This document shows positions 6,758 through 30,685 of a stretch of 39,505 nucleotides of DNA, piece by piece (positions within the stretch are counted from its first letter, which is position 1; each line of letters opens with the position of its first letter). The position numbers and the translations under genes were made by a program. This stretch comes from Muribaculaceae bacterium (GTDB lineage Bacteria > Bacteroidota > Bacteroidia > Bacteroidales > Muribaculaceae). The notes under the pieces were generated by a model. It searched no databases and was not told where the DNA came from. It saw nothing but the letters and a program-made list of their open reading frames with translations. The stretch lies in assembly GCA_029071345.1 (NCBI GenBank), contig JAIEAO010000066.1:1-39505 (forward strand). Direction: 5' to 3'.

Positions 6758-6763
6758 TTTGTA

Positions 6764-6794
6764 AGTATGAAGTATAAAGTATAAAGTATGAAGT
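6764..6794 (+). repeat. Heptameric tandem repeat array
   Basis: AGTATGA AGTATAA AGTATAA AGTATGA AGT, strict 7-bp period. Confidence 0.85.
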
Positions 6795-6892
6795 CGCGGA
6801 GCGACGAGATTGTGGTTAACCCCACATGATGGAGCGAAGCGACTGAGTGTGGGGAAGGGGAAAATCTCAAAAAAATAGAGTGCCGGAGGCAC
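6793..6892 (+). repeat. Interspersed inverted-repeat element bounded by GGA-loop hairpins (copy 1)
   Basis: GTCGC-GGA-GCGAC, then GAGATT...CCCCACA / TGTGGGG...AATCTC, then GTGCC-GGA-GGCAC. Homologous to 21435-21521. Confidence 0.7.
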
Positions 6893-6904
6893 GATATTAT
6901 GAAT

Positions 6905-6932
6905 CTGCGGACGCGATATATCGCGTCCCTAC
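6905..6932 (-). repeat. GTAG-headed REP-like palindrome (copy 1)
   Basis: Minus strand reads GTAGGGACGCGATATATCGCGTCCGCAG; 8-bp perfect stem GGACGCGA/TCGCGTCC. Confidence 0.8.
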
Positions 6933-6966
6933 TGAAAACTGAAAACCAATAACTGAAAACTAAAAT
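6932..6966 (+). repeat. Heptameric tandem repeat array in the gcvH leader
   Basis: CTGAAAA CTGAAAA CCAATAA CTGAAAA CTAAAAT; directly abuts the REP and ends 11 bp before the gcvH ATG. Confidence 0.85.
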
Positions 6967-6977
6967 AAATAGAATAT

Positions 6978-11517: not shown

Positions 11518-11640
11518 TTGTAAAAATAGTTAGGTATACCCGAATAGAATTGCATATGTTGTAAAAATATATTAGTATACTTGAATAAAATTACAGAATT
11601 TGTAAAAATGTTTAGGTATACCCAAAAGAAATTACGGAAA
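11518..11640 (+). repeat. Three direct tandem copies of a 41-bp unit
   Basis: Copies at 11518-11558, 11559-11599 and 11600-11640, each starting TTGTAAAAAT and containing GTATAC and a GAATARAATT-like block; exact 41-bp spacing. Confidence 0.85.
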
Positions 11641-15178: not shown

Positions 15179-15186
15179 AGTTTTTA

Positions 15187-15221
15187 TTTTAGTTTTCGGT
15201 TTTCAGTTATCAATTTTCAGA
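15187..15221 (-). repeat. Heptameric array in the leader of the 14615-15178 gene
   Basis: Minus strand: TCTGAAA ATTGATA ACTGAAA ACCGAAA ACTAAAA, 7-bp period. Confidence 0.8.
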
Positions 15222-15916: not shown

Positions 15917-15921
15917 GGCAG

Positions 15922-15949
15922 TTTTCGGTTTTAAGTTTTCAGTTTTCAG
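15922..15949 (-). repeat. Heptameric array in the MBL gene leader
   Basis: Minus strand CTGAAAA CTGAAAA CTTAAAA CCGAAAA, ending 6 bp before the ATG. Confidence 0.85.
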
Positions 15950-15978
15950 AGATTAATCTCGATAATCAGGATTAATCC
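15949..15978. repeat. Two tandem palindromes at 19-bp spacing
   Basis: GAGATTAATCTC and GGATTAATCC, each followed by a CGATAA-type spacer; outer pair differs compensatorily. Confidence 0.55.
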
Positions 15979-15986
15979 CGATAAAT

Positions 15987-16020
15987 CTAATTCCTAACTC
16001 CTAATTCCTAACTCCTAACA
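15987..16020. repeat. Heptameric array overlapping the rsmG stop codon
   Basis: CTAATTC CTAACTC CTAATTC CTAACTC CTAACA. Confidence 0.85.
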
Positions 16021-21990: not shown

Positions 21991-22024
21991 TTATTGGTGT
22001 TAGTTGTCAGTTGTCAGATTTCAG
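21991..22024 (-). repeat. Heptameric array in the DUF3127 gene leader
   Basis: Minus strand: CTGAAAT CTGACAA CTGACAA CTAACAC CAATAAA. Confidence 0.8.
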
Positions 22025-22050
22025 TAGGGACGCGATAAATCGCGTCCGCC
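22024..22050 (+). repeat. GTAG-headed REP-like palindrome (copy 2)
   Basis: GTAGGGACGCGATAAATCGCGTCCGCC. Confidence 0.8.
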
Positions 22051-27384: not shown

Positions 27385-27440
27385 AGAATGAAGTATAAAG
27401 AATGAAGTATAAAGTATAAAGTATATAGTATATAGTATAA
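27385..27440 (+). repeat. Eight-unit heptameric array
   Basis: AGAATGA AGTATAA AGAATGA AGTATAA AGTATAA AGTATAT AGTATAT AGTATAA. Confidence 0.92.
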
Positions 27441-27441
27441 A

Positions 27442-27467
27442 GTAGGGACGCGATACATCGCGTCCGC
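27442..27467 (+). repeat. GTAG-headed REP-like palindrome (copy 3)
   Basis: GTAGGGACGCGATACATCGCGTCCGC. Confidence 0.8.
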
Positions 27468-27474
27468 AGAGATA

Positions 27475-27500
27475 GTAGGGTCGCGGCATACCGCGACCGC
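27475..27500 (+). repeat. GTAG-headed REP-like palindrome (copy 4, stem variant)
   Basis: GTAGGGTCGCGGCATACCGCGACCGC; same flanks, compensatory stem changes (A-T to T-A, A-T to G-C). Confidence 0.75.
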
Positions 27501-27545: not shown

Positions 27546-27593
27546 ATTACCATTAACTATTAACCATTAACTTTTAACTTTAACCCTTAACCA
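27546..27593. repeat. Heptameric array
   Basis: TTAACTA TTAACCA TTAACTT TTAACTT TAACCCT TAACCA. Confidence 0.75.
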
Positions 27594-28674: not shown

Positions 28675-28682
28675 TTTTTAAG

Positions 28683-28777
28683 TTATTAGTTAATGGTTAA
28701 TAATTAATGGTCGGGTAGTTAATAGTTAACGGGGAATAATCACCATTAACTATTAACTTATAACCATTAACCTTTTA
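28683..28777. repeat. Two heptameric arrays in the oxc-AEC intergenic region
   Basis: TTATTAG TTAATGG TTAATAA TTAATGG ... TTAATAG TTAACGG and CCATTAA CTATTAA CTTATAA CCATTAA CCTTTTA. Confidence 0.75.
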
Positions 28778-30627: not shown

Positions 30628-30685
30628 GTGAGAAGTAAGAGGTGAGAAGAAATGTATTACTTCATACTTGATACTTCATACTTTC
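30628..30685. repeat. Heptameric arrays in the frc-oxc intergenic region
   Basis: GTGAGAA GTAAGAG GTGAGAA and TACTTCA TACTTGA TACTTCA TACTTTC. Confidence 0.75.

Follow-up and report, generated by a model that had tools for sequence, protein, structure and literature searches.

Heptamer arrays run in phase into GTAG REPs in a 39,505-nt stretch of a Muribaculaceae genome (the window), and this junction, with its fixed side and register, recurs across the draft genome that holds it (G000; 2.56 Mb, 189 contigs). The junction is genuine and lies beyond chance. The most probable explanation, in our judgement, is that the heptamer arrays, AGT-anchored and self-expanding, offer landing sites at which GTAG REPs are later inserted in register. 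Sequence comparisons suggest that array and REP are not generated or moved as a single unit.

Heptamer arrays and REPs in the window

Direct reading of positions 27385-27440 (plus strand) confirmed the eight heptamers that the initial annotation had reported (AGAATGA, AGTATAA, AGAATGA, AGTATAA, AGTATAA, AGTATAT, AGTATAT and AGTATAA). This array, in which AGTATAA is the main unit and for which TRF gives a period of 7, continues in phase and without a gap into AGTAGGG (27441-27447), whose GTAG (from 27442) heads a plus-strand type A REP, GTAGGGACGCGATACATCGCGTCC, a 24-nt palindrome at 27442-27465 with a perfect stem of 8-9 bp. After this REP come a plus-strand type B REP, GTAGGGTCGCGGCATACCGCGACC (27475-27498), whose GTAG side directly adjoins no array, and a convergent partner array of AGTTAAT/GGTTAAT units on the minus strand (27549-27593, found with TRF). 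An array on the GTAG side had also been claimed at two further sites, and both were verified (6909-6965 on the minus strand and 21998-22047). Upstream of gcvH, a minus-strand type A REP (6909-6932) carries on its GTAG side a minus-strand AGTTTTC array near the gcvH start (6931-6965), with a convergent plus-strand partner of AGTATGA/AGTATAA units just past gcvT (6763-6794); at the other site, a plus-strand array of AGTTGTC/AGATTTC units (21998-22023) is in phase with a plus-strand type A REP (22024-22047). The window thus contains four GTAGGG-hairpin REPs, all extragenic, whose short palindromes have GTAG at the 5' foot. Arrays with no adjoining GTAGGGNCGCG REP are found at 15179-15220 (AGTTTTC, plus strand) and 30658-30683 (AGTATGA, minus strand).

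The composite upstream of gcvH (6770-6967) is itself a dispersed repeat of approximately 200 nt that is also present at G000:C143:28092-28287 (93%) and G000:C19:7161-7337 (83%). Positions 11518-11639 hold a 41-bp tandem repeat in three copies that is unrelated to the heptamers.

Side, register and unit families across the genome

The GTAGGGNCGCG pattern is found at 162 sites in G000 (83+79), compared to 2+4 for a reversed control pattern. When full flanks of 97 REPs were analyzed, lag-7 identity reached 0.406 on the GTAG side, against 0.273 on the opposite side and 0.253 at random positions, and it was significant (p<0.01) for 35/97, 5/97 and 7/400, respectively. With a 42-nt flank, significant 7-bp periodicity was found to the left (the GTAG side) of 43 of 106 REPs and to the right of only three, which is the genome-wide enrichment that had been proposed as a check on the annotation. 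The register is equally pronounced: AGT is found at -1, -8, -15, -22, -29 and -36 in 76, 24, 20, 28, 19 and 10 REPs, against 0-6 times at other offsets, and phase votes place 32 of the 45 scorable REPs in a single AGT register (p ~1e-17 vs a chance of 1/7). Overall, the fixed junction is present in about 30-40% of G000 REPs.

In approximately 0.9 Mb of G000 DNA, period 7 stands alone, with 200 arrays vs 2, 5, 4, 7 and 3 at periods 5, 6, 8, 9 and 10. An AGT-bearing unit on one strand characterizes 135 of these 200 arrays, while 61 are expected from shuffled units, and the commonest unit families are AGTTAGG (27 arrays), AGTTTTC (24) and AGTGAGA (23). A correspondence of one REP type to one unit family was rejected, as REP types and unit families mix.

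Separate occurrence of arrays and REPs

The initial annotation had combined the fixed junction with the proposal that array and REP are generated or mobilised together; the junction and its side stand genome-wide, but several results speak against the proposal. Of the 200 arrays, 129 have no GTAGGGNCGCG REP within 300 nt in the G000 DNA covered. Where two REPs have homologous right flanks (46 pairs), homology extends to the left flanks in only two pairs, on which basis co-mobilisation was rejected, and in 21 of the 46 an array is present in one member and absent from the other. The same independence is observed across the genus, where array matches per species range from 0 to 525. With 282 and 263 array matches, G005 and G012 contain zero REPs of the GTAGGGNCGCG type, while G021, G016 and G018 have 25, 44 and 12 REPs but only 0-1 array matches; in the 37 genomes scanned for both, REP and array counts do not correlate (rho 0.03). 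These counts cover GTAGGGNCGCG-type REPs only and include several incomplete genomes, and, as the control columns of the scan show, arrays whose units lack AGT go uncounted. At the G064 array ends that were inspected, no GTAGGGNCGCG-type REP is present. The presence of a RAYT/Y1 transposase is not associated with arrays in 61 genomes (p 0.37 and 0.54), and RAYTs were rejected as the source of arrays because genomes with strong Y1 matches do not have significantly more of them.

Allele series in Nostoc and junctions in other phyla

A degenerate junction pattern (two AGT units plus an AGTAG-REP) was used for other phyla. The matches listed include many from Nostoc and its relatives, as well as a Cytophagales MAG, Bacteroidales, an Acidobacteria MAG and a Latescibacterota MAG. 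As the Nostoc contigs were chosen by the junction pattern, they were excluded from enrichment. Orthologous spacers were compared at four Nostoc loci, picked for the presence of the junction in one member.

At the L145 locus, the sisters L340 and L337 (sister grouping 99/97) have spacers of 79 nt without a REP and 111 nt with one, a difference of exactly 32 nt. L340 reads ...AGTTAAGAGTTAAGAGTTAAGAGTTAGGATTTGC and L337 reads ...AGTTAAGAGTTAAGAGTTAGAAGTAGAGACGCGATGAATCGCGTCTGTACAAGAGTTAGGATTTGC, with identical outer sequence on both sides, and the extra 32 nt of L337 consist of the REP between AGT units. Similarly, at the REP2643 locus, L297, L304 and L311 read AGTTAGG AGTTTTC AGTTATG AGTGTTG with no REP, while L305 and L296 hold a 32-nt module in register at that place. 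These alleles fit the earlier suggestion of targeting at GTAG-like heptamers, and the existence of alleles with and without the hairpin at one site suggests that array and REP are not one unit. A reading of the alleles at three Nostoc loci finds heptamers in about 28 of the 31 that lack a REP. The L127 alleles without a REP measure 90, 111, 132 and 237 nt, every length being 6 mod 7; such 7-nt steps are compatible with slippage, which had also been proposed as the source of the arrays, though a REP is not required for it. Other L127 alleles have one to four REPs, and in L359 and L360 single heptamers space the REPs (39-nt period). Species also differ in the array unit that they carry at one place and orientation of the L144 locus (AGTTAGG, GTCATTA/GTCATTG, GGGCATT and AATGGGG).

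On three locus trees, REP presence requires 9, 7 and 6 changes, with L366 and L369 scored as "none" although they hold degenerate REPs. The deepest branches at L145 and L127 are mostly arrays without a REP, and the trees leave the direction of gain or loss unset. In an unbiased Nostoc sample, AGT is at -1 in only 7 of 29 REPs, few REPs lie within arrays, and 7-bp periodicity is significant on the left in 2/29 and on the right in 3/29. Because most of the sampled REPs are instead in minitransposon-like elements (~100 bp) or other settings, seating in an array is one Nostoc context among several.

Two further features of these loci were observed. At the L144 locus (L384-L408), both convergent arms switch unit together between species (AGTTAGG-type, GTCATTT-type and others). 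In L353-L358 of the L145 locus, the REP palindrome is itself interrupted by larger insertions that begin with GACGCGACGCCAGTCGCTACAACGGGGAG and end with GGCTCATTAATCGCGTC, a nested element within the REP.

Array orientation and gene edges

When arrays are read so that the unit starts with AGT, those on the GTAG side of G000 REPs aim at the REP (41 vs 3) and those past the REP aim back toward it (23 vs 4). Neighbouring arrays within 400 nt are convergent in 31 cases, divergent in four and tandem in 13, the two arms mostly having different units, and convergence is also present in Nostoc and G064. Many convergent pairs contain no REP and have tips of just 6 to 14 nt. Two REP-less pairs are found in the window: AGTTTTC at 15919-15949 (plus strand) with AGTTAGG at 15987-16019 (minus strand), where no REP of the GTAGGGNCGCG type is present, and AGTTAAT at 28681-28729 (plus strand) with AGTTAAT at 28742-28772 (minus strand), which fills the spacer between two genes. 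A hairpin formed by the arms was rejected as a common rule: it fits the complementary arms of 28681-28772 (fold z -5.3) and fails for 15919-16019 (z 0.37), and the two arms usually differ in unit.

Array tails lie a median of 1 nt from a stop codon and 8 nt from a start codon; ORFs were called mechanically, and stop-rich units may lower the 1-nt stop distance. Neighbouring arrays converge because arrays begin at gene edges and aim inward. In G070 (L324-L333), arrays are mostly four AGTAATA-type units within a longer dispersed repeat that spans TGCGAAACTTAAA...TGCTTCGAAGGTTGAACTTGCGAAACTTAA and has a strand bias within contigs.

REP surroundings and a candidate transposase

In G000, L091 encodes a 147-aa Y1_Tnp protein, a putative RAYT, flanked by outward-facing GTAG REPs at 1252(+) and 2282(-), so that a probable RAYT gene lies between REPs in this genome. 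Outside arrays, the base at -1 from GTAG is A in 67%, and CA or AA precedes it in 28/46. For comparison, in a published group 3 TnpA-REP, GTAG helps to determine which CT or CA sites are cleaved (PMC8266576). Some REPs form inverted pairs with GTAG facing outward (for example, L040:2270-2346), and many in G000 are single. After G000 REPs, a second palindrome often recurs, such as GGGGCTGTTGCTTGCAACTGCCC or GCGACACTTGCTCGCCAAGTGTCG, which gives mosaic composites (for example, at L039:4235, L068:8984 and L046:7278).

A single ortholog comparison was informative in G000. Upstream of gcvH, G000 has more units plus the REP, while its nearest relative, G026 (82-86% identity), carries two units (...GGAGTTAAAACTGAAAACTAAAAAAATAGAT) and lacks a REP ahead of the ATG.

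Origin of the array-REP junction

We favour the reading in which arrays are an intergenic repeat class of their own that lies at gene edges, aimed inward and often in convergent pairs. Whole 7-nt units would be gained and lost when the arrays realign on AGT during replication slippage or unequal exchange. A GTAG REP, with its head AGTAG, would later insert at a unit boundary and replace a unit; the register would be kept because the REP occupies a unit's place. In Nostoc, the array picks up again in register beyond the REP, while in G000 the REP lies where the array ends inward, and further palindromic modules, frequently with an inverted array, come after it. The mover may be a RAYT-type HUH single-strand transposase that chooses sites through GTAG or, alternatively, recombination between arrays. 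Register, sidedness, the independence of array and REP, the 32-nt allele difference and the 7-nt length steps are observed, while for G000 the array-first order is inferred from its appearance in Nostoc. Several points count against this reading. The array seldom resumes past the REP in G000 (3/106), unlike in Nostoc, so plain insertion alone fails to explain the one-sided form; the Nostoc alleles may differ through exact loss of the REP just as well as through its gain; RAYT presence in the genus does not follow arrays; a single ortholog comparison bears on G000 itself; and the Nostoc loci had been selected for the junction.

An order that is likewise array-first but has another mover, in which homologous or microhomology exchange between arrays copies the REP passively and crossovers within shared heptamers keep the register, is possible but doubtful. 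It is consistent with the REP-adjoining unit differing between empty and filled alleles (AGTTAAG/AGTTAGA at L145 and AGTTTTC/AGTTAGG at REP2643) and with the change of unit throughout arrays between species at L144, but the left-base preference of REPs outside arrays fits site choice by an enzyme, and Nostoc REPs also lie within the minitransposon-like elements. That the REP comes first, its hairpin stalling replication so that the newly made end (...AGT) repeatedly slips back by one heptamer and leaves an in-phase array, is unlikely: although one-sidedness, phase and the AGT of most G000 units would be covered in one step, arrays are common without GTAGGGNCGCG REPs in G000 and at the G064 ends, array-less REPs are common in G021 and G016, REP-less Nostoc alleles hold arrays, and the recurrence of unit families across loci (27, 24 and 23 arrays) would not be yielded by local slippage on random flanks.

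The nearness of array tails to starts and stops, together with the regulatory role that MacGregor 2015 (PMC4679880) proposed for TAACTGA repeats immediately preceding start codons, would suit arrays that are binding sites for a regulator, with the register reflecting protein spacing and the REP tolerated as an extra hairpin. This is improbable given that orthologous Nostoc L144 sites have different units or none and that array matches vary so widely among species of one genus. The single mobile unit of the initial annotation, made and moved together, accounts for a junction fixed in about 30-40% of REPs, but it is highly improbable in view of the independently assorting flanks and the uncorrelated genus counts. 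A more far-reaching reading, in which a dedicated cross-phylum process builds AGT-anchored arrays at gene edges and GTAG REPs are captured in register, strikes us as a long shot; if, for example, repeats were added to the 3' ends of intergenic breaks, convergent arms with different units would result.

Relation to known repeats and significance

The SDRs of Nostoc punctiforme are reportedly hairpins of 21-27 nt that often lie within tandem heptamers or minitransposons. Both contexts are present in the Nostoc DNA analyzed here, and at the loci compared above the array flanks both sides of the hairpin. G000, in contrast, belongs to the Bacteroidales, has many unit families and has one-sided arrays, with periodicity to the right of only 3/106 REPs.

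The heptamer TAACTGA, which is the AGTTATC unit on the opposite strand, is known from Beggiatoaceae, cyanobacteria and a few Bacteroidetes (MacGregor 2015, PMC4679880). Most of its copies in the type genome immediately precede start codons, and it has no evident spread mechanism; that paper deals mainly with this one unit and, in the passages concerned, does not link it to REPs. In G000, AGTTATC accounts for 3 of 200 arrays, the main units being AGTTAGG, AGTTTTC and AGTGAGA. GTAG REPs and their tyrosine transposases (RAYTs) are well described (Nunvar 2010 PMC2817692; Di Nocera 2013 PMC3733652; PMC8266576), and the G000 elements share the GTAG head, short palindrome, high copy number and REP-flanked Y1 transposase. 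The REP-associated repeats covered in the relevant passages of Di Nocera 2013 (PMC3733652) are palindromic tracts and interleaved families, with no heptamer arrays, and the word "heptamer" has 0 occurrences in its text. Some REPs are seen in inverted pairs with GTAG outward, the arrangement of REPINs (Bertels and Rainey 2011, PMC3116915); many G000 REPs are instead single, and the outer flanks are often heptamer arrays.

Our literature search, with most subscription papers beyond it, found no report of a register-locked junction, of convergent arms or of a Bacteroidales case, and all three provisionally appear to be new. To our knowledge, the choice of sites by REPs in genomes is poorly understood, and we know of no accepted origin for the heptamer arrays of cyanobacteria and Bacteroidetes. 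The register-locked junction, together with an allele series with and without REPs and with 7-nt steps, makes both questions testable. The convergent-arm layout is a general property for which every model of heptamer arrays must account.
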